This document shows positions 45,236 through 64,000 of a stretch of 64,000 bases of DNA, one piece after another. The DNA comes from Acidimicrobiaceae bacterium (GTDB taxonomy: Bacteria > Actinomycetota > Acidimicrobiia > Acidimicrobiales > Aldehydirespiratoraceae). The stretch spans positions 62,001 through 126,000 of the forward strand of contig JAERSO010000129.1 in NCBI GenBank assembly GCA_016845585.1, given 5' to 3'. Under the pieces are notes generated by a model. The model was not told the origin of the DNA. It made no database searches and saw only the letters and a list, made by a program, of their open reading frames with translations. The position numbers were made by a program, and so were the translations under genes. How positions within the stretch are numbered: the stretch's first letter is position 1; every line of letters starts with the position of its first letter.

Positions 45236-45245
45236 GAGCACGATC

Positions 45246-46753
<1,508 letters not shown>

Positions 46754-46757
<4 letters not shown>

Positions 46758-47293
46758 TGCACCCCGGTCACGTCGTTGCACTCGGGTACCGGTATCCGGG
46801 CCCATCCTCACTCGAGGTCCTCCGCGACTCCGTCGGGGCACTTCCGCGGTCTGCGGTTCGCAAGGCGATGGACGACTTCGTCGACTCGGTCGCGGGACTC
46901 GAACTGGGGAAGTGGGAGGAACTCCACACCCGCACGCTCGACCTGTCGCCCATGTTCGTTCCCTATGTCGGTCACGTGACCTGGGGCGAGAACTACCGGC
47001 GCGGCGAGTTCATGGCGGAACTCAAGCGCGACATGGAGGGCATTGGCGTGGATCTCGGGGGCGAACTCCCCGATCACATCGAGCCGATCCTCCGCTACCT
47101 CGCCGCGACACCGATTCCTCTGGCCGACCTGATCGAGGTGCTCGAGTCCGCGGTGAGCGAGATGAAATCGACCTTGGCCACCGCGGACAAACGAAGTCCC
47201 TACCGTCACCTGCTCGCCGCCACGCTCGCGGTGGTGCAGGACCTGAAGCCTGTTGCGATCGGAGTCCGACAGACGCTTGGAGGCAAGCAATGA
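46754..47293 (+). CDS. narJ: Nitrate reductase assembly chaperone NarJ
   Basis: 179-residue TorD/NarJ-type chaperone that inserts the molybdenum cofactor into NarG and keeps the complex soluble during assembly. The family core LHTRTLDLSPMFVPYVGHVTWGENYRRGEFMAEL is clear. GTG/ATG ambiguity is absent; ATG 46754 overlaps the narH stop, and the gene ends with ATGA overlap to narI. It is somewhat shorter than E. coli NarJ. Confidence 0.92.
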
Positions 47294-48009
47294 GTACCAC
47301 CGATCTGCTCTTCGGCATCTTCCCGTATGTCGCCACGGCCCTGCTCGTGGTGGTGACGTTGATCCGCTGGCGGCTGCATCCGTTCACCGTGTCGTCACTG
47401 TCCTCCCAGCTCCTGGAGAGTCGCAAGCTGTACTGGGGGTCGGTGCCGTTCCATTGGGGTCTCTCGACGATCCTGCTCGGTCATCTGGTTGCCTTGCTCA
47501 TCCCGCGTGGCTTCGAAGCCTGGAATGGTGCTCCGCTGCGGCTCTATCTGCTCGAGGCCACGGGGCTCGCACTCGGGCTCTGGGCGGCCTTCGGTATCGG
47601 TGTGCTCGTGTACCGCCGAGTCACCAGCGCCCGGGTCCGATCCGTCAGCTCGGTCATGGACTTCGTCGTACTCGCGGTTGTCAGCATTCAGATCCTCAGC
47701 GGGATCTGGATCGCCGTTGGCTACCGCTGGGGTTCGTATTGGGGGACGTCGGTCTTCGTCCCGTACATGCGTTCCATCATCGGGTTCGACCCCAAACCGG
47801 AATACGTGGACCCGCTGCCGTTCGCCCTGCAGCTCCACGCGTTCATGTTCTGGGTGTTCCTCGCGGTCTTCCCGTTCACTCGCCTCGTCCACATCGTCGC
47901 CTTGCCGCTCGGCTACCTCACGAGGCCGTGGCAGCGTGTGGTGCGGATGCGGGAGAGCCCGGCGGTGTATCACTCGGCGTCGGACAAGCCTCTGGAGCGC
48001 CAGCACTGA
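47290..48009 (+). CDS. narI: Respiratory nitrate reductase gamma subunit NarI
   Basis: 239-residue membrane cytochrome b of nitrate reductase with five helices. Start ATG 47290 is set by the narJ overlap. Histidines for two haems are in PFHWGLSTILLGHLVALLIP (first pair) and QLHAFMFWVFLAVFPFTRLVHIVALP (second pair). It oxidises quinol at the outer side. Its presence together with a complete bc complex means that quinol could reach nitrate by two routes. It is the last gene of the supercluster. Confidence 0.95.
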   Translation: MSTTDLLFGIFPYVATALLVVVTLIRWRLHPFTVSSLSSQLLESRKLYWGSVPFHWGLSTILLGHLVALLIPRGFEAWNGAPLRLYLLEATGLALGLWAAFGIGVLVYRRVTSARVRSVSSVMDFVVLAVVSIQILSGIWIAVGYRWGSYWGTSVFVPYMRSIIGFDPKPEYVDPLPFALQLHAFMFWVFLAVFPFTRLVHIVALPLGYLTRPWQRVVRMRESPAVYHSASDKPLERQH

Positions 48010-48076: not shown

Positions 48077-48844
48077 GTGAGTTCGGTTCAGAGTGTTCAA
48101 CGAGCCCTTGCGCTGCTGAGGGAGATCGGGCGAGAACCCGGAGGACTCGTCGACCTCTCGGCGCGCGTCGGGTTGGCAACGAGCACCACCGCCCGGCTGC
48201 TGGCCACCCTCGAGGCGGAGGATGCGATCGTTCGCGATGGTGACGGGTCGTATCTGGTTGGTCCGGTGATCCAGGCGCTGGCCGGATCCTCCGACCCGTC
48301 GCGCGCGCTCGAGACGATCGTGCACCCTCACCTCGTCGATCTGGCCGAGGAACTCGACGAAGCCGTGTGTCTCGCGATGTTGTCGGGCTACGACACGGTC
48401 ACCGTCGATCAGGTCGACGCACCGAAACCCATCCAGGCCGAGAACTGGACCGGCACCCGCGTGCCGTTGCATGCCGGCGGAGCCGGACTCGTCGTGATGG
48501 CCACATGGACCGACGACGAGGTCGAGCAGTACCTGGCCGGCGACCTCGCTGCGTGCAACGGCAATACCGTCACCGACCCCGACCGGTTGCGGTCGCGGGT
48601 CCGCCAAGCGCGAATGCGGCGTGTCATGTGGACCCACGGCGAATACGTCGACGGCCTGTCATCGGCATCGGCGGCGATCGTCGACAGCAGCGGCCGGTCC
48701 GTCGGCGCCCTCTACACCTATGGCCCGACGTATCGGTTCCCGGCCCCGGGCGAAGCCGACCGCGTCGCCACCATCATCCTCGCCCGTGCCGATCAGGTGT
48801 CGGCCGAGTTGGGGCATCACCGGGTCGAGGCCGAAGCTTCATGA
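48077..48844 (+). CDS. IclR-family transcriptional regulator
   Basis: 255-residue IclR regulator with GTG start. The N-terminal winged helix is SSVQSVQRALALLREI, VDLSARVGLATSTTARLLATLE. The C-terminal effector domain includes WTGTRVPLHAGGAGLVVMA and GEYVDGLSSASAAIVDSSGRSVGALYTYGP. It overlaps the second MttB-family gene by 4 nt (ATGA), so it is probably the local regulator, responding to a betaine-like compound or product. A dyad upstream may be its operator. Confidence 0.88.
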   Translation: MSSVQSVQRALALLREIGREPGGLVDLSARVGLATSTTARLLATLEAEDAIVRDGDGSYLVGPVIQALAGSSDPSRALETIVHPHLVDLAEELDEAVCLAMLSGYDTVTVDQVDAPKPIQAENWTGTRVPLHAGGAGLVVMATWTDDEVEQYLAGDLAACNGNTVTDPDRLRSRVRQARMRRVMWTHGEYVDGLSSASAAIVDSSGRSVGALYTYGPTYRFPAPGEADRVATIILARADQVSAELGHHRVEAEAS

Positions 48845-50373
48845 CCGAACGACGTCGTCGAAGCGGGCGCCGCGAACGCCCCGACGGCCCCACCGGCCCT
48901 CCGCAACGGCCGTGGGAGCTGTACCGGCGCTCCATCGAACCGACCCGGGTGGTGTCCGACGACGAGCTGGAGTCGATTCATCTCGCCTCGCTCGAGGTGC
49001 TGAGCACCGTCGGAATGGACTTCCTGCATCCGAAGGCGCTCGAGCTGTGGGCGGCCGCCGGAGCGAGGATCGACGGGGAACGGGTTCGGCTCGACCCGGA
49101 GCTCGTGCTCGAGCTGATCTCGACGGTGCCAGGTGAATTCACGATGCACGCACCCGATCCGCAGTACGACCTGCGTATCGGTGGCGACAACGTCGTGTTC
49201 ACCTCGGTGGCGAGCGCCCCCAACTACACCGATCGGGCCGGAGGACGTCGCACGGGGCGTCGCGAGGACTTCCGCACTCTCCTCAAGTTGTGTCAGCAGC
49301 TCAACGTCATCCAGAGCCACGGGGGCTATCCGGTCGAGCCGGTCGACATTCACGCATCGATCCGCCACCTGGAAGCCACCCGTGACATCCTCACCCTCAG
49401 CCCGAAGGCGGTGAACGTCTATTCCCTCGGTGCTCAGCGCAACATCGACTGTCTCGAGATGGTTCGGATCGTGCGGGGCCTGGCCGACGATCAGCTCGAC
49501 ACGCATCCGATCGTTCACTCGGTCATCAACGTGTCGTCGCCACTCCGGCTCGACACACCCATGTTGGAGGGGATCCTCCGATACTCGGCGCGCAACCAGG
49601 TCATCATCGTCACGCCCTTCACGTTGGCAGGTGCGATGGCCCCCGTGACGGTCGCGGGCGCAATCGTGCAGCAGAACGCGGAAGCGCTGGGCGGGATCGC
49701 GTTCACCCAACTCGTGAACGCCGGCGCGCCGGCGATCTACGGCGGGTTCACGTCAAACGTCGACATGCAGTCGGGTGCACCCGCATTCGGCACGCCGGAG
49801 TACATCCAGTCCGCCATGCTCGGCGGGCAGCTGGCCCGTCGCTACGGACTGCCCTACCGCTCGTCCAACGTCTGCGCGGCCAACACCATCGACGTCCAGG
49901 CAGGCTACGAGAGCACGTTCGCGCTCTGGGGCGCGATCATGGGCGGCGCCAATGTCGTCTACCACGGTGCGGGATGGATGGAGGGCGGGCTCCACGCGTC
50001 GCCCGAGAAGATGGTCATCGACGCCGACCTGCTCCAGATGGTGGCGACATTCCTCCAGCCGCTGGTGGTCGACGATGCCACGCTGGCGCTCGACGCCATC
50101 GCCGAGGTCGGACCCGGTGGTCACCACTTCGGCACACAACACACCCAGGACCGCTACCGCACGGCGTTCTACCGGCCGATGATCTCCGATTGGCGCAACT
50201 TCGAATCGTGGGACGAAGCCGGTCGACCGTCGTCGTACGACCACGCCGAACGGGCCGTACAGGAGCTTCTCGCGTCGTACGAACAACCCTCGATGGACGA
50301 TGCCGTCCGCGCCGAACTCGACGACTTCGTCGACCGTCGCGTCGCGGAGGGCGGTGTCGCCACGGACTTCTGA
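48841..50373 (+). CDS. MttB-family (non-pyrrolysine) corrinoid methyltransferase, copy 2
   Basis: 510-residue MttB-superfamily protein. Start ATG 48841 overlaps the IclR stop; the earlier ORF start is out of frame with real coding. Segments include HLASLEVLSTVGMDF, VEPVDIHASIRHLEA, IYGGFTSNVDMQSGAPAFGTPE and GGHHFGTQHTQDRYRT. No amber codon interrupts it, so no pyrrolysine. It differs strongly from copy 1 and probably takes a different methylated amine or sulfonium. Its methyl acceptor, a corrinoid protein, is not encoded nearby. Twelve bases separate it from the oxygenase gene. Confidence 0.84.
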   Translation: MTERRRRSGRRERPDGPTGPPQRPWELYRRSIEPTRVVSDDELESIHLASLEVLSTVGMDFLHPKALELWAAAGARIDGERVRLDPELVLELISTVPGEFTMHAPDPQYDLRIGGDNVVFTSVASAPNYTDRAGGRRTGRREDFRTLLKLCQQLNVIQSHGGYPVEPVDIHASIRHLEATRDILTLSPKAVNVYSLGAQRNIDCLEMVRIVRGLADDQLDTHPIVHSVINVSSPLRLDTPMLEGILRYSARNQVIIVTPFTLAGAMAPVTVAGAIVQQNAEALGGIAFTQLVNAGAPAIYGGFTSNVDMQSGAPAFGTPEYIQSAMLGGQLARRYGLPYRSSNVCAANTIDVQAGYESTFALWGAIMGGANVVYHGAGWMEGGLHASPEKMVIDADLLQMVATFLQPLVVDDATLALDAIAEVGPGGHHFGTQHTQDRYRTAFYRPMISDWRNFESWDEAGRPSSYDHAERAVQELLASYEQPSMDDAVRAELDDFVDRRVAEGGVATDF

Positions 50374-50384
50374 GGAACGGCAAC

Positions 50385-51626
50385 ATGGACATGACTGATT
50401 GGACCGACGATCGCGTTTGGAGCGGTACGCGCGCCCCGCTTCGCCAGTCGACCGGACTGAATCCGTCGGCGTACGTCGACGAGCGATTCTTCGCCCTGGA
50501 GCAGGAACTGGTCTTCGAGCGGGCCTGGGTCGTCATCGGCACGGCACCGGAGGTGGCCGAACCCGGTCGCATGCTCGTTCGTCGGCTCGGCCAGAAGTCG
50601 ATCCTCGTCACTCGAGGCACCGACGGCGAGTTGCGGGGGTTCCTCAACTCGTGTCGTCATCGTGGGACCGAGCTCGCTGATCACGACTGCGACATCGCCG
50701 GCACGATTCGGTGCCCCTACCACCGCTGGGGATACGGCACCGATGGCACTCTGGTCGCCACGCCGTTCTTCGACGAGGTTCCACGCGACGACTTCAAAAA
50801 GGCCGACTATCCGCTGCTCCAGGTGCGGGTCGAGACGTGGGGGCCACTGCTCTACGGATGTCTCGACCCCGAGACACCGCCGTTGCTCGAGTGGCTCGGT
50901 GACCTGCCCGAGCGAATGGCCGGATACGGCTTCGAGGACTGGCGGGTCCAGGAGGAGGCCGTGCTCGAGATCGGCGCGAACTGGAAGCTGATCTCGGAGA
51001 ACTTCCAGGAGTACTACCACCTCACGTGGGTCCATCCCGAGCTCGCGAAAGTCAGCCGGGTCAAGGACCACTACCGCTACCAGGGGCCGGGAATGTATGT
51101 CGGCCAGACCACCACCCCGGTCTCCGGCGACGATCGAGACGACTGGCTGGTCCTGCCCGCGGCCGCCGGGCTCGACGAGTCCGATGCCACCAGTGGCCGT
51201 CACATCGCCGTGTACCCCAACGTGATCTTCTCGGTTCTGCCGAACCATGTGTTCGTGATGCGGCTCGATCCGCTCGCCCCGGGCCTCACCCGAGAGACCT
51301 GCACGTTCCTCCTGCCGCCATCGACACCCGACGTCACCGACGACGACATGAAGACCACGCGCGACTTCTGGTTCGACGTCAACAACGAGGACATCGACAT
51401 CTGCCAGCGAAGCCAGCGCGGCCTCACCCACGGTCGCATCGCCGCCGGTCCGCTCGCCCCTCGTTTCGAGGAACCACTTCACCGGTTCCACAACATGCTC
51501 GCCGACTGCATGACGGCCGACTCGCTCGCGACCGGCCTCACCATCCCTGCAGGCGACGACGGTTCCGAGGTCTCGCGCCTCGGCACCGGACCCAACCCGA
51601 CTCCTCCTGCGATCGAGCAGGTCTGA
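50385..51626 (+). CDS. Rieske non-haem iron oxygenase, quaternary-amine demethylase type
   Basis: 413-residue ring-hydroxylase-type oxygenase. ATG 50385 has an AGGAA site 7 nt upstream. Rieske ligands are C90-R-H92 and C110-x2-H113. The mononuclear iron site is ENFQEYYHLTWVHPE, with His212 and His217. The residue that bridges the two metal sites is Glu209 instead of the Asp of aromatic dioxygenases, as in carnitine monooxygenase CntA and the GbcA/Stc2 group. It probably removes a methyl group from a betaine as formaldehyde. Its reductase (GbcB-like) is absent from the window. Confidence 0.85.
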   Translation: MDMTDWTDDRVWSGTRAPLRQSTGLNPSAYVDERFFALEQELVFERAWVVIGTAPEVAEPGRMLVRRLGQKSILVTRGTDGELRGFLNSCRHRGTELADHDCDIAGTIRCPYHRWGYGTDGTLVATPFFDEVPRDDFKKADYPLLQVRVETWGPLLYGCLDPETPPLLEWLGDLPERMAGYGFEDWRVQEEAVLEIGANWKLISENFQEYYHLTWVHPELAKVSRVKDHYRYQGPGMYVGQTTTPVSGDDRDDWLVLPAAAGLDESDATSGRHIAVYPNVIFSVLPNHVFVMRLDPLAPGLTRETCTFLLPPSTPDVTDDDMKTTRDFWFDVNNEDIDICQRSQRGLTHGRIAAGPLAPRFEEPLHRFHNMLADCMTADSLATGLTIPAGDDGSEVSRLGTGPNPTPPAIEQV

Positions 51627-51634
51627 AGGAAACC

Positions 51635-54172
51635 ATGAAGACCAACACCCAGGTCGTCGTCATCGGCGGTGGCGTCGTCGGCGCCTCCGTGCTCTACCAC
51701 CTGACCAAGGCCGGCTGGACCGACGTGGTGCTGCTCGAGCGGGCTGAGTACACGGCCGGCTCCACCTGGCACTCCGCCGGCGGTATGCACACGCTCAACG
51801 GCGACCCCAACGTCGCCAAGCTCCAGCAGTACACGATCACGCTGTACGAGGAGATCGAGAAGGAGTCCGGCATGGACGCGTCGATGCACATCACCGGTGG
51901 CGTGATGTTGGCCGACACGCCCGAACGCATGGACTGGCTGAAGATGAGCCACGCCCGCGGTCGCTACCTCGGCATGAAGACGGAGTTGATCTCGGCCAAG
52001 GAAGCACAAGACCTCCTCCCGATCCTCGATCCGCAGTACTTCGTCGGGGCGATGTGGGATGAACACGAAGGTCACCTCGACCCGAGCCAGATCACCCATG
52101 CCTACCTCGAGTGCGCCCGGAACCGTGGGGCAGAAACCCATCGCCACTCCTGGGTGCGCGACATCAACCGCGCCGCCGACGGTGGGTGGGACCTGACCGT
52201 CTACGACCCACGCACGGACGAGGACAGGGCCACCGTTCACTGCGAACACGTGGTCAACGCCGGCGGTCTCTGGGCTCGAGAGGTCGGCCGCATGGTCGGC
52301 CTGGAACTGCCTCTGCTCGCGATGGAGCACATGTACCTCCTCACCGAGGAGATCCCCGAGGTCGTCCAGCACAACAAGGACACGGGCAAGGAGATCATCC
52401 ACGCGGTGGACTTCGGTGGCGAGATCTACATGCGTCAGGAAGGCAACGGCCTCCTGATGGGCACCTACGAGCGCCGTGGCAAACCCTGGTCGACCTCGCA
52501 GACGCCGTGGGACTTCGGTGCCCGCCTGTTGACCCCCGACCTCGAACGGATCGCCGAGTCGCTCGAGACCGGATTCAAACACTTCCCGGTGTTCGCCGAA
52601 GCGGGTATCAAGCAGGTGATCAACGGTCCGTTCACCTTCGCCTCCGACGGCAATCCGCTGCTGGGGCCGGTGCGAGGTCTGCCCGGCTACTGGTCGGCCT
52701 GTGCCGTCATGGCCGGTCTGTCGCAGGGCGGTGGAGTCGGTCTGTCGCTCGCCAACTGGATCGTCGATGGTGATCCGGGCTTCGACATCTGGGGCATGGA
52801 CATCAGCCGCTACGGCGACTATGCGACCATGGCCTACACCAACGAAAAGGTCCGTGAGAACTACTCCCGCCGGTTCCGCATCTCGTTCCCGAACGAGGTC
52901 CTGCCCGCCGCCCGTGCCGTACAGACCTCGCCGATCTATGACCGTCTCGCTGCCCAGAACGCCGTCTTCGGCGTCGGCTTCGGCCACGAAGCCGCACTCT
53001 GGTTCCAGAAGGAAGGCGAGGAGCCCGTCGAGGACGTCACCTTCGGGCGCTCGAATGCCTGGGACCAGGTACGCGAGGAGACGCTGGCGGTACGGTCCAG
53101 CGTCGGCCTGTGGGAAACCACCGGCTTCTCCAAGTTCCGCTTCTCCGGACCCGGGGCACGTGCGTATCTCGACCGCGTGTTGGCCGGCCGAATCCCCGTT
53201 CCGGGTCGGATGTCGCTCACCCCGATGACCAATCCGGCCGGCAATCTCATCGGCGACCTGACGGTGGCAACGCTCGGCCCCGCGGCAGGAGTCGCCGAGG
53301 GTCCCGCCGCCACCATCACCGGTGGGGTCACCGCGAACGTTCGCCACGAGGAGGAGTTCATCCTGTTCGGTTCGGGCATCGCCGAGCGATACTACGAGCG
53401 CTGGTTCGACCAGCACCTCCCCGCTGATGGTTCGGTGCGGTACGAGACGCTCGGCTTCGAGACGGCCGGCCTGTCGATTGCCGGTCCCAACGCCCGAGCG
53501 CTCCTCGAGAAGATCACGGATGCCGACGTCAGCCAGAACGGCATGGGGTTCATGGCGTTCAAGGAGATCAACATCGGTCTCGCTCCCGTGCGGTGCGGCC
53601 GGGTGACCTTCACCGGCGATCTCGGCTACGAGTTCTGGATGCCGGCCCGCTACCAGCGCTACGTCTACGAGCAGTTGCTCGAGGCGGGCGAGGAGTTCAG
53701 TCTGCGGATGTTCGGTCTCCACGCCCTCAACTCTCTGCGCCTCGAGAAGAGTTTCGGTTCGTGGGCCAGCGAGTATCGCCCCATCTATGACCCGTTCGAG
53801 GCAAACCTCGATCGGTTCATCAAGATGGACAAGGACTTCATCGGTCGTGACGCACTTGCCGCCAAGTACGCCGCCGACGGTCCTGGTGCCACTCATGCGC
53901 TGATGACGTTCACCGTGGAGAGCGACCCCGGCCGAGACGGCGTCGATGTCATCGGCGACGAGCCGATCTGGCACGACGGCGACGTCGTCGGATGGGTCAC
54001 GTCGGGCGGCTACGCCCACCACAGCGAGACATCGGTTGCGATGGGCTACGTACCGGCGGCACTCGGCGATTCCGACGGCCCATGGCAGATCGAGATCATC
54101 GGTGAGATGAGGGCAGCGACACGAATCGCCGGCTGCATCTGGGACACCGAGTCCGAGCGGATGTTGGGCTGA
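51635..54172 (+). CDS. Dimethylglycine/sarcosine dehydrogenase-like FAD protein
   Basis: 845-residue four-domain flavoprotein. ATG 51635 follows an AAGGA site. The DAO domain begins VVVIGGGVVGAS (9-18), and AGSTWHSAGG has His46 at the place of covalent FAD attachment in rat DMGDH. An FAO_M linker and a GcvT-type folate-binding domain (GFSKFRFSGPGARAYLDRVL, GLSIAGPNARALLEKI, GYEFWMPARY) follow, then GCV_T_C (VGWVTSGGYAHHSETSVAMGYV). It oxidises N-methyl groups of dimethylglycine or sarcosine, passing the carbon to tetrahydrofolate. It fits downstream of the Rieske demethylase. Confidence 0.88.
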   Translation: MKTNTQVVVIGGGVVGASVLYHLTKAGWTDVVLLERAEYTAGSTWHSAGGMHTLNGDPNVAKLQQYTITLYEEIEKESGMDASMHITGGVMLADTPERMDWLKMSHARGRYLGMKTELISAKEAQDLLPILDPQYFVGAMWDEHEGHLDPSQITHAYLECARNRGAETHRHSWVRDINRAADGGWDLTVYDPRTDEDRATVHCEHVVNAGGLWAREVGRMVGLELPLLAMEHMYLLTEEIPEVVQHNKDTGKEIIHAVDFGGEIYMRQEGNGLLMGTYERRGKPWSTSQTPWDFGARLLTPDLERIAESLETGFKHFPVFAEAGIKQVINGPFTFASDGNPLLGPVRGLPGYWSACAVMAGLSQGGGVGLSLANWIVDGDPGFDIWGMDISRYGDYATMAYTNEKVRENYSRRFRISFPNEVLPAARAVQTSPIYDRLAAQNAVFGVGFGHEAALWFQKEGEEPVEDVTFGRSNAWDQVREETLAVRSSVGLWETTGFSKFRFSGPGARAYLDRVLAGRIPVPGRMSLTPMTNPAGNLIGDLTVATLGPAAGVAEGPAATITGGVTANVRHEEEFILFGSGIAERYYERWFDQHLPADGSVRYETLGFETAGLSIAGPNARALLEKITDADVSQNGMGFMAFKEINIGLAPVRCGRVTFTGDLGYEFWMPARYQRYVYEQLLEAGEEFSLRMFGLHALNSLRLEKSFGSWASEYRPIYDPFEANLDRFIKMDKDFIGRDALAAKYAADGPGATHALMTFTVESDPGRDGVDVIGDEPIWHDGDVVGWVTSGGYAHHSETSVAMGYVPAALGDSDGPWQIEIIGEMRAATRIAGCIWDTESERMLG

Positions 54173-54174
54173 TC

Positions 54175-55482
54175 ATGGCGGGTCGAATACGTCGTTCGGT
54201 ACAGCAGGCCCTCGATGGCACCCCTGAGGTCGCCCATGCGGCGGGGGAGGGTCACCATCTCGCCATCGGTCCCGGTGAGGCGCTGACGTCGCAGTGGATC
54301 GCTGATGGATTGGAACTCCCGGATCTCCCGGCCATGCGCCGGTACCGCGTCGAGCGCATCCAGGAACAACTCCGGGACCTGGACTACGGCGGGATCGTTC
54401 TGTTCGATCCGCTCAACGTCCGCTACGCCACGGACTCGACCAACATGCAGTTGTGGGTGATGCACAACGGCGCTCGCTACGCCTTCGTGAGCGCGGCCGG
54501 CCACGTCATCATCTGGGACTATGTCAACACGGAGTTCCTGTCCGGTCACAGCGAGGTCGTCGACGAGATCCGTCCGGCGATCGGCTCGACCTTCTTCCTC
54601 GGTGGTCGTCGATGGGAAGAGCAGGCCAAACGCTGGTCAGCCGAGATGATCGAGGTCATCGAAGAGCATTGTGGCAGCGGATCCAGGATTGCGGTGGATC
54701 AGTGTCACCGCACCGGCTACCTGGAGTTGGCCAAGGCCGGCATCGAGGTCGGCGAAGGCACCGAGGTCATGGAGCTGGCCCGCGCCATCAAGAGCCCCGA
54801 CGAGATCAAGGCGATGCGCTGTGCGGCGCATGCGTGTCAGGCAACGATGGCTGAGATGCGCGAAGCGCTGAAACCAGGCATGACCGAGCGAGAGGTATGG
54901 GCCCTGCTCCACGCCGGCAACATCGCTCGGGCAGGGGAGTGGATCGAGACCCAGATCCTGGCGTCGGGGCCGCGCACCAATCCCTGGATGCAGGAAGCCA
55001 GCGCTCGAGTGATCGAGGAAGGCGACATCCTCGCCTACGACACCGATCTCGTGGGTGCCTACGGGATGATGATCGACATCAGCCGATCATGGGTTGTCGG
55101 CGATCGGAAGCCGACCGCTCATCAACAGACGCTGTTCGACATGGCCAAGGACATGGTCCAGGGCAACGCCGAGCTGCTCACACCCGGTCGCACCTTCCGC
55201 GAACTCACGTTCGATGCACAGGTGATGCCGCGTGAGGACTATCGCCACTATTCGGTGATCTACCACGGTGTCGGCCAGTGCGATGAGTACCCGTCGATCT
55301 ACATGCCGTGGACCTGGGACGAATGGGGCCATGACGGTGCCCTCGAGCCCGGCATGGTGCTCACGTCGGAGAGCTTCATCGGTTCTCGCGACGGTGGAGA
55401 GGGCATCAAGCTCGAGGATCAGTATCTCGTGACCGAGAACGGCCCTGAGCTCCTCACCGATTTCCCGCTCAGCCTGGTCTAG
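54175..55482 (+). CDS. dddP: DddP-type DMSP lyase (M24 metallopeptidase fold)
   Basis: 435-residue M24-family protein very like DddP, which cleaves dimethylsulfoniopropionate to dimethyl sulfide and acrylate. DddP-specific segments are DPLNVRYATDSTNMQLW (78-94) and GEWIETQILASGPRTNPW (254-271). Metal-site positions are Asp289, Asp291, Asp301, His364, Glu399 and Glu414. Their spacing matches the published Ruegeria DddP ligands (295, 297, 307, 371, 406, 421). Catalytic Tyr359 and Asp370 match Tyr366 and Asp377. Ordinary Xaa-Pro peptidases lack these segments. It starts 2 bp after the DMGDH-like gene. Confidence 0.85.
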   Translation: MAGRIRRSVQQALDGTPEVAHAAGEGHHLAIGPGEALTSQWIADGLELPDLPAMRRYRVERIQEQLRDLDYGGIVLFDPLNVRYATDSTNMQLWVMHNGARYAFVSAAGHVIIWDYVNTEFLSGHSEVVDEIRPAIGSTFFLGGRRWEEQAKRWSAEMIEVIEEHCGSGSRIAVDQCHRTGYLELAKAGIEVGEGTEVMELARAIKSPDEIKAMRCAAHACQATMAEMREALKPGMTEREVWALLHAGNIARAGEWIETQILASGPRTNPWMQEASARVIEEGDILAYDTDLVGAYGMMIDISRSWVVGDRKPTAHQQTLFDMAKDMVQGNAELLTPGRTFRELTFDAQVMPREDYRHYSVIYHGVGQCDEYPSIYMPWTWDEWGHDGALEPGMVLTSESFIGSRDGGEGIKLEDQYLVTENGPELLTDFPLSLV

Positions 55483-55497
55483 GGAGACCGGGACCCA

Positions 55498-56403
55498 TCA
55501 GTCGAAGCGCCCGGCCGTGTCGTCACCGGCTCGGACCGGGTTGGAATCGGGGTCGTCGGTCATGCCGTAGCTGTTCCACGGGACGAAACCGCACAGCTTC
55601 AGGAGCCCCGGCGACATGGCGTCGCGCACCTCGGATCGCGCGCCATAGGTGAGGTTGGCCAGCCCGCGCATGATCGGCGCGCAGTAGTAGGTCACCACGC
55701 CGTACCGAGGGTGGTCGGCGGTGTTGATGCCAGCGGCATGCCAGGTGCGGCCCTCCCACACGAGCAGTGACCCCGCCGGTGCTTCGATGGTGACGGCGTC
55801 ATAGTGGCGACTCGGATCGGGCAAGCACCCACTCAGATGGCTCCGCGGCACCATGCGGGTGGCTCCGTTGGCTTCGGTGAAGTCGTTGGCCATCCACATC
55901 ATGTTGGCGGAGAGCGGGGGAGCGATCGGCGCGGTCGCCGGGATCGGGTCGCCGTACGGGCCGCTGGTGCGAGTGAGGTCTCCCTGTCGGCCGTGAGGAG
56001 TGCCGGGCGTCACGGGTTGTGGCATCCACCACTGGTCGGCGTGTAGCGGCATGACCTTGTTGCCCGGATACGTGATGTGAGCGTCGAGCGATGACAGGAG
56101 ATGCTCAGCGCCGATGATGTAGGTCGCCAGTGCCCGGGCGCCGGGGTGCAAGGCCAGCTGTTGGAACTCATCGCCCTTGTTGATCAGTTGGTAGACCCAC
56201 TGGTTGACGTCGTCGCCCTCGGCTTCTGCCGGGTAGTGGAAGTCAAGGGAACGACTGCGTTCGGCCCTGGCCTGAGCGGAGATGCGGTCACAGAGTGCCC
56301 TCGCGTCCTTGTCACTGAGTGCCTCGGCGATGATGCAGTATCCGTACTCGTCGAGATCGGCGACCTGTTGCGCGTAGTCGGTGGTGGGCGCGGGGAGCGG
56401 CAT
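55498..56403 (-). CDS. Phytanoyl-CoA dioxygenase (PhyH)-family protein
   Basis: 301-residue Fe(II)/2-oxoglutarate-type oxygenase of the PhyH family. The N-terminal LDEYGYCIIAEALSDKDAR is the standard start. The facial triad is probably His-Asp in MPLHADQWW and a distal His in GRTWHAAGINTADHPRYG. The MVPRSHLSG segment is the family core. PhyH relatives in ectoine and betaine clusters hydroxylate osmolytes. It is convergent with dddP and follows the second oxygenase by 17 bp on the same strand. Confidence 0.8.
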   Translation of the reverse strand: MPLPAPTTDYAQQVADLDEYGYCIIAEALSDKDARALCDRISAQARAERSRSLDFHYPAEAEGDDVNQWVYQLINKGDEFQQLALHPGARALATYIIGAEHLLSSLDAHITYPGNKVMPLHADQWWMPQPVTPGTPHGRQGDLTRTSGPYGDPIPATAPIAPPLSANMMWMANDFTEANGATRMVPRSHLSGCLPDPSRHYDAVTIEAPAGSLLVWEGRTWHAAGINTADHPRYGVVTYYCAPIMRGLANLTYGARSEVRDAMSPGLLKLCGFVPWNSYGMTDDPDSNPVRAGDDTAGRFD

Positions 56404-56420: not shown

Positions 56421-57284
56421 TCAGTCGATCAGGACGTCGGATCGGATCCGCTGCTCCTCGGCATCGAGATGCTCCTGCAGGACGCGGCCGAAGAGCTGTT
56501 GCGTGCGTTCGACCCGGCCGATCACGCCGGCCTCCTCGGTGTAGGCGAAGATCGCGGCGTGGCGAGGCCGAGAGTCGGCGGGCACGCGTGAGACCTGATG
56601 GAGGCTGTAGCGACCCCGGAAGATCTGCATGTCGCCGGGACGGAGGTCGAGGGTGTGGATGCCCTCTCGGCCACCCTCCAGGATGTTCTGGATACGGTCG
56701 AACCCCTCGTCCTCGGCACTCCGGGTTGCCGGGTAGTACTCGAACAGGCCGCCCTCGTCGGCCTCCTGCACGAGCACGGTGACGGCGAAGTCATTCGTGT
56801 CGAAGTGCCACGTGAAGAGCTGGCCGGGATCGAGGATGTTGGCGGTGAGACCCGCCAGCGGGTCTTCGTAGCAATGCAGCTCCGGGATCTCGAGGCACTC
56901 GGCGACGAACCGCTTCAGTTCAGGCGCGCGGAATATCACGTCCGTGGCGCAGTCGGCGTTCCAGGAATCACCCGGGATGAAGCCACTCGAACGTTCGAGG
57001 AAGGTGTTGACCGGATGGTCAGCGGGGTAGTCGTCATTGACCGAGGTGTGGAAGTACGGATTCATCACCTGGGTGGAGAAGTGTGTGGTGTGCTTCCGCG
57101 CTTCGATCTCGTCATTGAGCACGGCCACGGCTTCTGGCCGCACGAGGTCCTTGACGATCGCACAGCCGACGGAACGCAGACGCTCACGAGCCGCGTCGAC
57201 TGCGACGAGATACGCAGCGGAATCCGGCTCGTGGAGCGGGTAGCGATCGAGGTCCACGAGCGTTTCGAGAGTGGCGACAGTCAT
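56421..57284 (-). CDS. 2-oxoglutarate/Fe(II) oxygenase-like protein
   Basis: 287-residue protein with cupin-type oxygenase fold. The start ATG 57284 (MTVATLETLVDLDRYPLHEP) is preferred over the longer track start, which runs into the divergent promoter. The likely iron triad is His-Asp in FTWHFDTNDF and His in YSLHQVSRV; the RHAAIFAYTEEAG Arg would hold 2-oxoglutarate. The sequence resembles the HalD/ArpA-like group. It is the first gene of the two-gene minus-strand oxygenase operon, divergent from LysR. Confidence 0.75.
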   Translation of the reverse strand: MTVATLETLVDLDRYPLHEPDSAAYLVAVDAARERLRSVGCAIVKDLVRPEAVAVLNDEIEARKHTTHFSTQVMNPYFHTSVNDDYPADHPVNTFLERSSGFIPGDSWNADCATDVIFRAPELKRFVAECLEIPELHCYEDPLAGLTANILDPGQLFTWHFDTNDFAVTVLVQEADEGGLFEYYPATRSAEDEGFDRIQNILEGGREGIHTLDLRPGDMQIFRGRYSLHQVSRVPADSRPRHAAIFAYTEEAGVIGRVERTQQLFGRVLQEHLDAEEQRIRSDVLID

Positions 57285-57342
57285 TCCCGCCAGTATGCGG
57301 GCCGACGCCATGGCTGAAAATCCCACGTTCAGGTCATCTGGT

Positions 57343-58339: not shown

Positions 58340-59494
58340 TCAGCCGAGTGCAGCGGCAATCCAGCTGTCAGCGAGGTCACGGTTGTCCGCGACCCACTTG
58401 GCCGCGATCTCCTCGACCGCAGCCTGCGAGCCGTCGGAGGCGTTGAGGTCGACACCGGCGATGGCCATGTCGATCAGCGGCGGGTTGAATGCCGCGCTCA
58501 GCGCAATGGCAGCCGGGTTGTCGTCGCCCCACGCCTTGTTGACGGTGACGAGGATGTCGGCAGCTTCCCAACCGGTGTTACAGCCGCTGGCGGGAGCCAG
58601 ACACACATCGGCGCTCAGACCGTCGTAACCCTCACCCTGCGCGTAGCTCTCGCCACCCTCCTTGCCGAGGGGGTTCGAGTCGTCGAGGATGGTCTCGAGG
58701 GTCAGCCACATCGTGGTCTCACCAGGGATCGCCTGGGCGAGGTACGAGGTGGGGGTCCAGGTGTAGATGATGGCGGGATCGCCGGCCTGCGCCTTGGTCA
58801 GGAACTCGGCGAACATGGCGTCGTAGCCGGCCTGGGTCTGCTCGAGGGTGTCCCATCCAGCGAACGCAATCTGGGAAGCCATGATGTCATCACAGGTCCA
58901 GTCCTCGGGGCAGCCGTAGAACTCGCCCTTGCCGTTGCCGTCGCTGTCGAGCTGGCTCCACAGAGCCTCGTCAGCGGCGATCTGGTCGAGCGACTCGATG
59001 CCGTTGGCCTCGGCCCAGCTCTTGGTGACGAGCATGCCCTGCAGACCACCGCCCGGCATGACCGAGCCTTCGACGACCGTCAGGTTGTCGCCGATGCGGG
59101 TGCCGTCGGGCAGATCGCCCTCGTGCCAGCTGAAGTGACCCGGGTACCAGCTGTTGGCCCAGATGTCCATGTCGCCGGAAGCCATCGTCTGATAGCCGAG
59201 GTCAGGCGCGAACTCGAGGGCGTCAGGGCTGGACACGTCGTAGCCGAGCTCCCCGAGCAGGATTGCGAGGATCTGGGCGTGAACGTAGCCGGACGACCAG
59301 TTGGCGCGACCGAAGTTGACGGTCTTGCCCTCACCGGGAAGTGCGGCAGCCATGTCGTCATCGGAGCCGGAGTCGTCAGACCCCGAGTCGTCGGAACCAG
59401 CGTTGGTGGAGCTGTCATCGTCGTCGCCGCATGCAGCAGCGACGAGCGCGAAGACCGCAAGCAAAGCGAGCAACAAGCTCTTTGTCTTACTCAT
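58340..59494 (-). CDS. Glycine-betaine-type ABC substrate-binding lipoprotein (ProX/OpuAC-like)
   Basis: 384-residue lipoprotein. The ATG at 59494 is preferred: an AAGGAGGGG ribosome site lies 12 nt upstream, and the signal peptide with lipobox VAAAC (Cys22) follows at once. A Ser/Asp spacer repeats GSDDS. The OpuAC domain includes YVHAQILAILLGELGYDV and WANSWYPGHFSWH, whose tryptophans suit a cation-pi cage for quaternary ammonium or sulfonium groups. Several Cys pairs (CPEDWTC, CLAPASGC) may form disulfides. It is the last gene of the importer operon and would bring in betaine or DMSP. Confidence 0.86.
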   Translation of the reverse strand: MSKTKSLLLALLAVFALVAAACGDDDDSSTNAGSDDSGSDDSGSDDDMAAALPGEGKTVNFGRANWSSGYVHAQILAILLGELGYDVSSPDALEFAPDLGYQTMASGDMDIWANSWYPGHFSWHEGDLPDGTRIGDNLTVVEGSVMPGGGLQGMLVTKSWAEANGIESLDQIAADEALWSQLDSDGNGKGEFYGCPEDWTCDDIMASQIAFAGWDTLEQTQAGYDAMFAEFLTKAQAGDPAIIYTWTPTSYLAQAIPGETTMWLTLETILDDSNPLGKEGGESYAQGEGYDGLSADVCLAPASGCNTGWEAADILVTVNKAWGDDNPAAIALSAAFNPPLIDMAIAGVDLNASDGSQAAVEEIAAKWVADNRDLADSWIAAALG

Positions 59495-59518
59495 ATTGGT
59501 TTGTCCCCTCCTTGGGAT

Positions 59519-59580
59519 ATTCATACCGCCGAACAGGCTACCGCGACCACTGGGCGTATTTCGTGTCACGGGGTATGAAT
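59519..59580. promoter_or_regulatory. 9-bp inverted repeat attcatacc/ggtatgaat
   Basis: Perfect arms separated by 44 bp in the 105-bp gap between the permease and the binding-protein gene. This spacing is long for one operator but could hold two half-sites around an internal promoter that boosts binding-protein expression. The evidence is positional only. Confidence 0.3.
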
Positions 59581-59599
59581 CGTTTTGTGCCCAGATCTT

Positions 59600-62029
59600 T
59601 CAGGTGCCGGTCAGCGCCGGGTCGGCGCTGACGTCTTCGGTGTCATCGCTTGGTGCGGCCTCGGCGGCATCAGCGCTGAAGTCGGCGTAGATCTTGCGAC
59701 GACGGAACTCGTCGACCACGCCCCGTCCGCTCGCGAAGAGCAGGAATCCGGCAACGAGGGTGACGAACGCACCCACGCCGGAGAGTGCGCCGGGTTCGGC
59801 GACCCGCACCATTCCGAGAATGAAGCCCATGGGAATGGCCATGAGTGCCAAACCGATCCCGGCCAGGAGCGCCGAAGCCTTCCATCGTGCTTCTTCTCCT
59901 CCACCGAGGGCTCCGCTGGCAGGGATCGCCACCGCCAGGCCCAGGGCAGCGAACAGCATCGAGAGCCAGCCCAACCCGGGCCCTTCGGACTCGACGCCGG
60001 TGAACACGATTCGGGTGTAGTCGCTCGAGGCCCCGTCTTCGAGGGCCTCTTGTACGACGTCTTCCACGTCATCACCGGTGAATCCACCCAGGAGAGCGGC
60101 GGTCTGCTCCTCTTCGGTGAGTTCCTCGAGATCGGCCTCGTCGAGGCCTTCGCCCACGAGTTCGGCTTGGAACTCGTCGGTGAGATCGAAGTACCAGCCG
60201 AACTCGGTCTTCGTGCTGTCGTTGCCGGAGAGCAATGCGCCACCGACGACCAGCAGCAGTGCGGCTGCCGCGCCTCCGATCCGGCCCCAGCTCACGGTGA
60301 GCGGAAGGGGTCGGCGCGATGCGTAGGGAGCACGCAGCGTGGCCATGAGGGCGCCGGCGAACGCGATGAGGGACCCGATGATGGCGACGTAGACACCGAT
60401 GCCATCGGAGTAGTCGGCTGAGCCGGGAGCGGTGCGAAGGAAGAGGTATCCGAGGGCGGACCCGGTGACCGCGAGTGCGGCGATGAGCGCACCATCAGCA
60501 CCGAGGCGGGGCGTGCCGGCGGCGTACAGCTCGACCAGAATCGCGACGGCGGCCACGACGAACAACCACAAGCCCAGGTCCGGGAACGGACCGAAGCCGA
60601 CATCGAGCATGTTGAGAACCCAGATGAGTGCGACGATGACCACGATCGCCCCGATCGCCGCACCCTGGATGCGAGCCATCAGCGTCACCACAGACCCGGG
60701 GATCGAGAGCAGCGGTCGAACTGCGGCAAGCAGGGCCAGCAGCGCGAACACACCGACGAAGATGCCGAAGAACGTGCCGCCGGAAGCGGAGATGCCGTTG
60801 AAGCTCTCGCCCGTGAGGCCGAGGTCGATCGAGCGACCCCAGCCCGAGACCAGGCCGGCATCGCTGCCCCAGGTCAGGAAGATCGACACGAAGGCGAGAA
60901 GGCTTCCCGCCGCGGCGATCATCAAACCGGTGCGCTCACCGGACTCGACCGGGGTGAGGCGTTCCGCGGGCTCTTCGTCCGTCTGAGCGCCGGCGGCGTC
61001 GGCGCGTGCTTCGAGAAGTCCCTCGGGGTCGGCGCGGTACTTCCATGCCCGCGAGACCTTGGTGAAGAATCCGATGCCGTCGTCGGCCTCGGACTGCGTG
61101 ATTCGGTCGAAGGTGACGGCGACGAGGAAGAACGCAAGGCCACCACCGGCGGCGAGGCGCAGGTCGAAGTTGTTGATGGCCCGGAACAGCAGCTTGCCGA
61201 GACCGCCGGCACCCATGAGGGCGGCGATACCGAGCATGGCGATCGAGAGCAGCAGCGTCTGGTTGAGGCCGGTGAGAATCGCGGGTCGGGCCAGCGGGAG
61301 TTGCACGTCGGTCAGCACCCGGAACTCGGTGGCGCCATAGGCGCGTGCCGCTTCGACGACATCCTCCGGGACTTGTCTGATGCCGAGGTTCGTGAGGCGC
61401 ACGATCGGCGGGACCGCGAACACCATCGTCACCATGGTTGCCGAGACTTCACCGATACCGAAGAAGAAGATGAACGGCAGCATGTAGACGAACGAGTGGA
61501 CGACCTGCATTGCGTCGAGTGTCGGTCTCACCACGGTCCAGACCGCGTCGACTCGTCCCGACAGGATCCCGAGTGGGATGCCGACGATGGAGCAGAGCAG
61601 CACGGCAACGAGGATCATGCCGATCGTGCGTGACGTCTGGAACCAGAAATCGCCCGAGATCGTGCCACTCCCGAGAAAACCACACGTGCCGAGCATCACG
61701 GCGGCGCTGAGGCCGACCCGGGTGTTGCGGGCGATCGAGCCGATGATGAACACCGCGATCACGATCCACAGCCACGGAATCGTCGTGATGGAGTCTCGCC
61801 CCACCTTGTCGCTGAGGATCAGGCTGAACAGCGTGGAGAACGGCCATTCGACCATGTCGCCGAGCTGAGCGGTGACGTCGTTGAACTGCGCCCACTTGAC
61901 CAGTTGGACGAACCATTCGCCGAACGGCAGCGTGAAACTCCCCGGCCACTCATTGTCGAAGAATCCGGAGTCGCGCGCCGCTTCCGCGGCTGACTGCGAC
62001 CCGTCGGAGCTTTCCTGGAAGAACGGCAT
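59600..62029 (-). CDS. Betaine-type ABC permease (ProW/OpuAB-like) fused to extra membrane domain
   Basis: 809-residue fusion. Residues 1 to about 340 are a ProW-type permease with FGIGEVSATMV, VPPIVRLTNLGIRQVP and the EAA loop EAARAYGATEFRVLTDVQLPLA, ending in a cytoplasmic KVSRAWKYRADPEG. About 470 further residues follow, unlike normal ProW: roughly ten helices in two sets, an acidic soluble insert (LDEADLEELTEEEQTAA) and a charged tail (DEFRRRKIYADFSADAA). The start shares one base with the ATPase stop. The second permease upstream has the same kind of tail. Confidence 0.82.
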   Translation of the reverse strand: MPFFQESSDGSQSAAEAARDSGFFDNEWPGSFTLPFGEWFVQLVKWAQFNDVTAQLGDMVEWPFSTLFSLILSDKVGRDSITTIPWLWIVIAVFIIGSIARNTRVGLSAAVMLGTCGFLGSGTISGDFWFQTSRTIGMILVAVLLCSIVGIPLGILSGRVDAVWTVVRPTLDAMQVVHSFVYMLPFIFFFGIGEVSATMVTMVFAVPPIVRLTNLGIRQVPEDVVEAARAYGATEFRVLTDVQLPLARPAILTGLNQTLLLSIAMLGIAALMGAGGLGKLLFRAINNFDLRLAAGGGLAFFLVAVTFDRITQSEADDGIGFFTKVSRAWKYRADPEGLLEARADAAGAQTDEEPAERLTPVESGERTGLMIAAAGSLLAFVSIFLTWGSDAGLVSGWGRSIDLGLTGESFNGISASGGTFFGIFVGVFALLALLAAVRPLLSIPGSVVTLMARIQGAAIGAIVVIVALIWVLNMLDVGFGPFPDLGLWLFVVAAVAILVELYAAGTPRLGADGALIAALAVTGSALGYLFLRTAPGSADYSDGIGVYVAIIGSLIAFAGALMATLRAPYASRRPLPLTVSWGRIGGAAAALLLVVGGALLSGNDSTKTEFGWYFDLTDEFQAELVGEGLDEADLEELTEEEQTAALLGGFTGDDVEDVVQEALEDGASSDYTRIVFTGVESEGPGLGWLSMLFAALGLAVAIPASGALGGGEEARWKASALLAGIGLALMAIPMGFILGMVRVAEPGALSGVGAFVTLVAGFLLFASGRGVVDEFRRRKIYADFSADAAEAAPSDDTEDVSADPALTGT

Positions 62030-63246
62030 TACATGAACACCTCGCGTTCGAATCCGTCGATGAGCCGTTCGACTCGTCCCATCTCCTTCATGATGTCTCT
62101 CAGGTGGATCGCGCCGATCAGCTTGCCGCCCTCATCACACACGGCGAGGCTGCGGCCCTTGCCGGCCTCCGCGTAGATGTCGTTGAAGGTGGTGCGGGCC
62201 CCGGTGCGGTCGAAGTCCTCGATGAGCACCGACGAGACGTCGATGGAACCGGCCGCCAGAGCGGCCACGGCCTCTTCGCGCGACACCAGGCCCGTTGGCT
62301 TGCCGTCGTTGTCGACGACGAAGGCACCGAAACGATCGCCGATGGCATCGAGTGCCTGGCCGAGTGTTGCGTCGGCCGAGCAGGTCTTGGCGTCGACCAT
62401 GATCGTCTTCACGTCGATGACACGACCCTGATCCACGTCCTGCACGAACTCGGCCACATAGCCGGTGGCGGGCTGGGTGAGGATCTCTTCGGGGGTGCCG
62501 ATCTGGACGACGGCGCCGTCCTTCATGATGCAGACACGGTCGCCGATCCGCAGGGCCTCGTTGAGGTCGTGGGTGATGAACAGGATCGTCTTGTGGAGCT
62601 GCTCCTGGATGTCGAGCATCTCGTCCTGCATCTGGCGCCGGATCAGCGGGTCGAGCGCCGAGAAGGCCTCGTCCATGAGCAAGATGTCGGGATCGGCGGC
62701 GAGCGCCCGGGCCAGGCCCACACGTTGCTGCATGCCGCCGGAGAGCTCGCGAGGGTTGTTGTTGGCGAACGACTCGAGTCCGACGAGCCGCAGGGCGTTC
62801 ATCGACGCCTCGTTGCGAGCCGCCTTCTCCACGCCCTGCACCTTGAGGCCGTAGCCGGTGTTGTCGATCACCGAGCGGTGCGGGAAGAGGGCGAAGTGCT
62901 GGAAGACCATGCCCATCTTCTCCCGACGGAACTCCTGGAGTGCCGTGCCGGTGAGGGCGTGCACATCGACACCATCGACGATGACCTTGCCGTCGGTGAT
63001 GTCGTGGAGCTGGTTGACCGTGCGGATCGCCGTGGACTTGCCCGAACCGGACAGACCCATGATCACGAACGTCTCGCCGCGCTTCACCGAGAACGACACG
63101 TCGGTCATGCCGACCACATGGTCGGTGGCCGCTTGCACGTCGTTCTTCTTCATGCCGCTCTTGGCGAGCGTCAGGGCACGCCCCCGAGGCTGAGGCCCGA
63201 AGATCTTGTAGACGTGCTCAAGCCGAATGATTTCGTCGTCAGACAT
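62029..63246 (-). CDS. Betaine-type ABC transporter ATPase with CBS domains (ProV/OpuAA-like)
   Basis: 405-residue ATPase. Walker A is GLSGSGKST, the signature is LSGGMQQRVGLARAL and Walker B is ILLMDEAFSALD. The N-terminal QAATDHVVGMTDVSFSVKRGE extension and two C-terminal CBS-type segments (ATLGQALDAIGDRFGAFVV, LIGAIHLRDIMKEMG) are as in OpuAA, where CBS domains sense ionic strength. It powers uptake of glycine betaine, proline betaine or DMSP under osmotic stress or as carbon source. The gene lies between the two permeases. Confidence 0.9.
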   Translation of the reverse strand: MSDDEIIRLEHVYKIFGPQPRGRALTLAKSGMKKNDVQAATDHVVGMTDVSFSVKRGETFVIMGLSGSGKSTAIRTVNQLHDITDGKVIVDGVDVHALTGTALQEFRREKMGMVFQHFALFPHRSVIDNTGYGLKVQGVEKAARNEASMNALRLVGLESFANNNPRELSGGMQQRVGLARALAADPDILLMDEAFSALDPLIRRQMQDEMLDIQEQLHKTILFITHDLNEALRIGDRVCIMKDGAVVQIGTPEEILTQPATGYVAEFVQDVDQGRVIDVKTIMVDAKTCSADATLGQALDAIGDRFGAFVVDNDGKPTGLVSREEAVAALAAGSIDVSSVLIEDFDRTGARTTFNDIYAEAGKGRSLAVCDEGGKLIGAIHLRDIMKEMGRVERLIDGFEREVFM

Positions 63247-63321: not shown

Positions 63322-64000
63322 TCAGACAGTGGCGGCTTCCGTGTGGGTCACGGCTTCGACGATTTCGTCAAGCTCCGCACTGTCGGCGTGAATGCTGTGA
63401 TCGGCGTAGAGCTTCTGGCGGCGGAACTCGCCGACCATCTTGCGACCGCTCGCGAAGAACACGAAGCCGCCGACGAGGGCGAATGATGCCGCCACCCCGG
63501 CGATCGCGTTCGGTTCCGCGGTGCGAACCGTGCTGGCGATGAACGCCCCGGGGATCACCATGAGGGCGAGACCCAGGCCGGCCTGCAGCGTGGCCGATTG
63601 CCAGCGGGATTGTTCGCCTCGACCGACGAGCCCGGCCGTGCCGAGTGCGGTGCCGACCGCCAGGATTCCGATGACGGCGGCGAGGACGCCCTGCTGGGGA
63701 CCATCGCTCTCAGAACCGGTGTAGACGATGCGCTGACCCGTGATCAGCTCGTTGTACATGTTGGAGATCGTCTGAGCGGCGGCGAGCTGCTTGGTGATGT
63801 CGTCGCCCGCATCGTCCTCGAGCTGCTGGATCTCGGCGAGGAACTCCGGCGTCTCGAGTGTGGTGAGTCGTGCGTCGTAGAACCAGCCGAACTCCGACTG
63901 TTCCTCTTCATTGCCGGCGAGGAAGGCTCCGCCGAGAATCAAGAAGATTGCGAATGCCGCGCCGACCAGACCCCCGACGGACACTCTGGTCGGAAGCGGA
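63322..64000 (-). CDS. Second betaine-type permease, C-terminal extra domain (partial)
   Basis: The frame is open to the right edge; only the last 225 codons are in the window. PLPTRVSVGGLVGAAF and GGAFLAGNEEEQSEFGWFYD line up with PLPLTVSWGRIGGAAAA and GGALLSGNDSTKTEFGWYFD of the 809-residue permease. The tail EFRRQKLYADHSIHADSAEL also matches. It is therefore a paralogue carrying the same extra domain, and presumably a full permease starts beyond the edge. It is transcribed first in the operon. The track's GTG at 63984 is internal. Confidence 0.75.
   Translation of the reverse strand, partial: PLPTRVSVGGLVGAAFAIFLILGGAFLAGNEEEQSEFGWFYDARLTTLETPEFLAEIQQLEDDAGDDITKQLAAAQTISNMYNELITGQRIVYTGSESDGPQQGVLAAVIGILAVGTALGTAGLVGRGEQSRWQSATLQAGLGLALMVIPGAFIASTVRTAEPNAIAGVAASFALVGGFVFFASGRKMVGEFRRQKLYADHSIHADSAELDEIVEAVTHTEAATV

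Follow-up and report, generated by a model that had tools for sequence, protein, structure and literature searches.

Does a DddP-like gene that lies among genes for methylated-amine catabolism encode a DMSP lyase, or an enzyme for another substrate? The question is raised by a gene in a 64,000-nucleotide stretch of an Acidimicrobiaceae genome (here called the window), which the first-pass annotation had read as a DddP-type DMSP lyase. DddP-type genes in Acidimicrobiia MAGs have already been published (PMC7494906, PMC13280387), and Mesorhizobium dddP was reported to be prominent in sediments (PMC7039863). These Acidimicrobiia and Mesorhizobium calls are homology-based predictions; those of the first study were made from HMM E-values of 1e-50 or lower together with trees (PMC7494906). 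Moreover, cultured marine actinobacteria have been described which release DMS and carry no known ddd gene (PMC6309047).

Gene neighbourhood

The DddP-like gene closes a tight set of plus-strand genes, and a betaine-type transporter is encoded on the opposite strand beyond it. The features are as follows, in window positions:

48077..48844, plus strand: IclR-family regulator (Pfam HTH_IclR and IclR_C), overlapping the start of the MttB gene by 4 bp
48841..50373, plus strand: MttB-superfamily methyltransferase without Pyl, 510 aa (Pfam MTTB, 653 bits)
50385..51626, plus strand: Rieske oxygenase of the GbcA/carnitine-monooxygenase type (NCBIfam GbcA, 158 bits, under the cut-off of 670)
51635..54172, plus strand: DMGDH-type FAD oxidoreductase with GcvT domains, 845 aa (Pfam DAO, FAO_M, GCV_T and GCV_T_C)
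54175..55482, plus strand: DddP-like M24 protein, 435 aa, complete ORF, last gene of the tight set
55498..56403, minus strand: PhyH-type Fe/2OG dioxygenase (Pfam PhyH), convergent, 15 bp past the DddP-like stop
58340..63246, minus strand: ProX-ProW-ProV glycine-betaine-type ABC transporter (58340-59569, 59600-62029, 62029-63246; NCBIfam and Pfam)

Among PDB entries, the MttB-superfamily protein matches 4yyc, 2qne and the glycine betaine methyltransferase 9yce. The Rieske oxygenase matches a carnitine monooxygenase and 3vca, which we take to be of the stachydrine-demethylase type, and the best match of the DMGDH-type protein is dimethylglycine dehydrogenase 4p9s (1e-146). The DMGDH-type gene ends at 54172 and a 2 bp gap separates it from the DddP-like gene, just as the first-pass annotation had reported. 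The close packing of the IclR, MttB, Rieske, DMGDH and DddP-like genes suggests that they are co-transcribed on one message. A promoter and terminator scan returned one promoter-like site, no more than in shuffled sequences. Past the DddP-like gene, a LysR gene lies on the plus strand among minus-strand genes. The transporter was assigned from NCBIfam ProX (183 bits), the proV subfamily model (over its cut-off) and Pfam BPD_transp_1 in ProW, and its substrate is probably of the betaine type.

Sequence, fold and active site

In phmmer searches of the PDB the window protein matched RlDddP (5e-112) and RdDddP (2e-105), to which it is 42% and 40% identical, respectively, compared with 3e-14 for the best prolidase. 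The NCBIfam model for DddP (NF043017) gave 459.6 bits, which is under its cut-off of 600; the proteins from Oceanisphaera (626.5 bits), Oceanimonas (614.6), Paracoccus yeei (852) and Loktanella (870) pass this threshold. An AlphaFold2 model (mean pLDDT 86.5) had RlDddP and RdDddP entries as its four top PDB fold matches (TM 0.88-0.89, rmsd 1.7-1.8 A, 42-44% identity), with a TM of 0.89 against 4s01. Prolidases ranked after the DddP entries, at TM 0.65-0.70 and about 21% identity. By their PDB titles, 4s00 and 4s01 are the Y366A and D377N mutants of RlDddP. The window protein thus shares with the DddP structures (RlDddP 4rzy/4s00/4s01, RdDddP 4b28) the fold, the length and the N-terminal NMQLW loop, and differs in carrying Tyr in place of RlDddP Ala103 and Ser in place of Gly282.

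Alignment to RlDddP placed the active-site codons, all on the plus strand within 55039..55416, at:

55039-55041: D289 (RlDddP D295), metal ligand
55045-55047: D291 (D297), metal ligand
55075-55077: D301 (D307), metal ligand
55249-55251: Y359 (Y366), catalytic
55264-55266: H364 (H371), metal ligand
55282-55284: D370 (D377), catalytic
55369-55371: E399 (E406), metal ligand
55414-55416: E414 (E421), metal ligand

The RlDddP numbering is therefore offset by 6 for D289, D291 and D301 and by 7 for the other five residues, and the earlier observation that this ORF holds every DddP metal position and the Tyr/Asp pair at offsets of 6-7 was borne out.

Phylogenetic placement

A search across genomes found at least 594 relatives, the best 80 of which were kept for comparison. 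Of the named organisms among the matches listed, an Actinomycetota MAG comes nearest (88% identity), followed by Ilumatobacter, Microthrix and Acidimicrobiales MAGs at 58-65%, which agrees with the actinobacterial origin first deduced from the sequence. A maximum-likelihood tree was built from 87 proteins, with fungal DddPs left out. The window protein falls in a 71-row clade with the ratified DddPs (support 100/99) and not with aminopeptidases or creatinases, the outcome that the first-pass annotation had named as refuting its reading. The clade consists of a ratified branch of 24 rows (RlDddP, RdDddP, Paracoccus, Loktanella, Oceanisphaera, Psychrobacter and Pseudomonas) and a sister branch of 47 rows (88/87) from Mesorhizobium, Roseibium, Kiloniella, gammaproteobacterial MAGs and Acidimicrobiia, to which the window protein belongs. 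The DddP-like proteins of rhizobia and Burkholderia relatives lie outside the 71-row clade, as do the paralogues from the host genome itself. Grouping the sister branch with these rhizobial and burkholderial proteins is disfavoured (p-AU 0.012), while the test does not reject a topology that joins its actinobacterial part to the ratified branch (p-AU 0.07).

The search found no characterised member of the sister branch. Across about 690 actinobacterial genomes, sampled by class (296) and by phylum (397) with some genomes in both, none exceeded the DddP cut-off in either sample; in the class sample, a match at E <= 1e-60 was obtained for 25 of the 296 genomes.

A conserved operon with MttB and DMGDH

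Further genomic analysis by tblastn revealed that the DddP-like gene is flanked by homologues of both MttB and DMGDH at 34 of 54 sister-branch loci, whereas this was the case at 0 of 17 ratified-branch loci; the counts cover loci with enough upstream sequence, some neighbourhoods being cut by contig ends. After genus dereplication the MttB-DMGDH-DddP set was present at 16/36 sister-branch and 0/16 ratified-branch loci (Fisher p 0.0009). Among the bacteria that have the set are Microthrix, several Acidimicrobiaceae, Roseibium, Kiloniella, Mesorhizobium, a Thiotrichales MAG and a SUP05 bacterium. The divergence of the genes is also correlated (DMGDH-DddP r 0.90 and MttB-DddP r 0.70, against permutation maxima of 0.43 and 0.31), to which shared descent of the hosts contributes. 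We found no description in the literature of the M24, MttB and DMGDH combination, of DddP with betaine and peptidase M24, or of a tie between the sister branch and an MttB-DMGDH operon.

A complete corrinoid set was also found, starting roughly 10 kb past the end of the window and comprising MtgC-like, DUF1638, MtrH-like pterin methyltransferase, RACo and second MttB genes:

71951-78082 on the window scale, outside the window, minus strand: MtgBCD-type corrinoid operon (G000:C129:133951-140082; L161/L162)

In marine bacteria that live aerobically, glycine betaine is demethylated by MtgBCD (PMC12478193). Given this precedent and the corrinoid set, the island would appear well equipped for quaternary-amine demethylation. 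As in the MtgBCD system, an MttB-superfamily gene is present in the window operon, and the MtgC-like, pterin-binding methyltransferase, RACo and second MttB genes lie downstream; the difference is that the window MttB gene is separate from the corrinoid operon and paired with the DMGDH and DddP-like genes. The earlier suggestion that DMSP and betaine breakdown are expressed together is partly upheld: there is good support, consistent across phyla, for co-expression with methylated-amine catabolism, but this gene context speaks just as much for a substrate that is not DMSP.

The active site in the wider DddP-like family

The eight active-site residues are invariant in all 24 ratified-branch and all 47 sister-branch rows of the alignment. 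However, they were rejected as proof of a DMSP lyase, because all eight are also present in a homologue from Rhizobium leguminosarum WSM1325, and other outer homologues share them. The WSM1325 gene adjoins genes for a Rieske oxygenase, a 4-hydroxyproline epimerase and a betaine-type ABC transporter, a cluster of the hydroxyproline-betaine type. Close copies of it occur widely across the R. leguminosarum complex, R. johnstonii among them. R. leguminosarum J391 served as a host unable to catabolise DMSOP (PMC10686828), although the homologue may not be expressed there. The segments RYATDSTNMQLW, RTNPWxQE and HGVGxCDEYP, which had been taken as exclusive to DddP, proved to occur in slightly varied form in the wider family too.

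Other members of this wider family also lie in betaine gene clusters, in Rhizobium, Paraburkholderia and Parasedimentitalea. In Paraburkholderia the homologue has genes for an oxidoreductase and a Rieske protein beside it, and one for P5C reductase nearby. Together with those of Pseudomonas MPC6, these proteins, which are labelled "Xaa-Pro peptidase family", resemble the window protein in identity (38-44%), in the metal ligands, often in the Tyr and Asp as well, and in having betaine-catabolism neighbours. They differ in lying outside the 71-row clade and in their partner genes, which are mostly Rieske plus reductase, hydroxyproline epimerase and P5C reductase.

Within the ratified branch, the dddP gene of P. 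yeei adjoins an epimerase gene whose product has its best PDB matches in 4e8g, 2pmq and 4h2h, which are HpbD hydroxyproline-betaine epimerases. On the P. yeei plasmid (L044:7751-11429) dddP lies between an MDR reductase gene and the HpbD-like epimerase gene, hinting that even true DddPs may link to proline-betaine catabolism. A Zn-MDR reductase gene is common to the P. yeei dddP locus and the gammaproteobacterial sister-branch loci, and weakly matches acryloyl-CoA reductase models.

Possible substrates

The window protein is best explained as a metal-dependent lyase whose substrate is a zwitterion of the DMSP or betaine type, and that it cleaves DMSP seems to us slightly more probable than that it does not. 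A DddP-family M24 "pita-bread" binuclear-metal enzyme would act on a small carboxylated zwitterion and would be made together with the methylated-amine catabolic operon. The two metals, held by the six ligands listed above, would bind the substrate carboxylate, D370 aided by Y359 would take the alpha proton, and the onium group would depart by beta-elimination. In DddP, Asp377 was proposed as the base, with Tyr366 as an alternative (PMC4108388). DMSP would enter through the betaine-type ABC transporter and yield DMS and acrylate. The analysis establishes the family, the fold, the conserved site and the conserved operon, and from these we infer the chemistry, the substrate, the uptake route and co-transcription.

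In favour of DMSP cleavage are the sequence and fold matches, which are best for DddP, the grouping with ratified DddPs, the disfavoured alternative topology, the invariant residues, the transporter nearby, the shared Zn-MDR reductase gene and an identity within the range of tested enzymes. The functional fungal enzymes FgDddP, which confers DMS production, and AoDddP are 32% and 50% identical to RdDddP, respectively (PMC4108388), and since FgDddP is active at 32% an identity of 40-42% does not exclude activity of the window protein. Against it are the score of 460 bits relative to a cut-off of 600, the failure of the search to find a characterised branch member, the richness of the branch in soil rhizobia (Mesorhizobium), its ties to amine demethylation rather than to known DMSP genes, and the presence of the same residues in homologues from hydroxyproline-betaine-type clusters. 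AcuI, considered as possible support, was not found in the host genome (best hit 116 bits, cut-off 297), which also counts against DMSP cleavage. Next to the DddP-like gene the window has no acrylate-handling genes. The genome holds two DmdA-like genes at other places (G000:C119:7507-8595 and C102:69020-70111), but with 368 and 366 bits they fall just short of the 410 required by the NCBIfam model for DMSP demethylase and were not accepted as DmdA. The original DMSP-lyase reading is partly supported: the protein lies in a clade with ratified DddPs, but in the sister branch, and its residues do not discriminate.

DMSP agrees with the family, the fold, the site and the nearby transporter, but as far as context goes an amine betaine would suit just as well. 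The sister branch may in nature be no DMSP lyase and instead an uncharacterised M24 lyase or hydrolase of a different methylated amine, such as beta-alanine betaine or a derivative (N-acyl or amidino) of sarcosine or dimethylglycine; we regard this as possible, if somewhat improbable. Its product would feed the adjacent MttB/DMGDH demethylation, much as creatinase feeds sarcosine oxidation. The conserved gene set with its correlated divergence, the complete MtgC/MtrH-like/RACo/MttB operon, the hydroxyproline-betaine-type neighbourhoods of wider homologues, the epimerase beside P. yeei dddP and the terrestrial hosts all point this way. On the other hand, the protein groups by sequence with DMSP lyases and not with creatinase or DoeA, and its predicted active site is identical at the tested positions. 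Moreover, DMSP is itself a betaine analogue, so a betaine context does not exclude it. The likelihoods given to DMSP-lyase activity and to another main substrate overlap, because the protein could do both. We tentatively hold it quite conceivable, short of probable, that the branch is a distinct amine-betaine lyase or hydrolase, operon-coupled to MttB-type methyl transfer and DMGDH oxidation; such an enzyme would span Acidimicrobiia, Mesorhizobium, Roseibium, Kiloniella and SUP05-type bacteria.

A DMSP/DMSOP lyase within a general osmolyte-degradation regulon is a sub-case of the preferred reading and rather unlikely in itself. Here the substrates would come together from algae and be degraded together while sharing no pathway step. 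The betaine-type transporter, the IclR and LysR regulators around the gene and its close packing with DMGDH would suit such a regulon, and tested DMSP lyases generally cleave DMSOP (PMC10686828); the lack of adjacent acrylate-handling genes in the window and the sub-threshold DmdA-like scores argue against it.

The reading as a plain M24 Xaa-Pro peptidase, which the Pfam domains (Peptidase_M24 and Creatinase_N) and the frequent annotation of relatives as "Xaa-Pro peptidase family protein" would suggest, is most improbable given the sequence, fold and tree results, the DddP Tyr/Asp pair and an identity of about 20% to the host's own M24 peptidases and prolidases; creatinase and DoeA were likewise ruled out (DoeA_2 40 bits, creatinase 1.5e-7, fold ranks 23 and below).

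These distinctions matter since sister-branch genes have already been counted as those of DMS producers, while the conserved operon points to methylated amines. If the branch cleaves DMSP, Acidimicrobiia join the DMS producers. If it is an amine-betaine enzyme, part of the dddP in marine surveys would not encode a DMSP lyase, the counts would be inflated, and a new betaine enzyme would be at hand.

Other observations

The host genome encodes two more DddP-like paralogues, at G000:C129:3636-4820 (L010) and C21:11809-12948 (L011); the first has Gly at the D377 position instead of the catalytic Asp. By ORF translations, a narGHJI-like respiratory nitrate reductase cluster (41594-48009) lies directly upstream of the betaine island. 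A HalD/BesD-family Fe/2OG enzyme (56421-57326, minus strand; PF23169, 37 bits) has an HxD motif (WHFDTNDF), which suggests a hydroxylase rather than a halogenase, and its homologues also stand beside DddP-like genes at two other loci (L053 and L123). Finally, two ProW-like permeases of about 800 aa each are encoded in tandem (59600-62029 and 63322-64000, the latter running past the window; L161:5322-7715), and both have long hydrophobic C-terminal extensions that are unusual for ProW.
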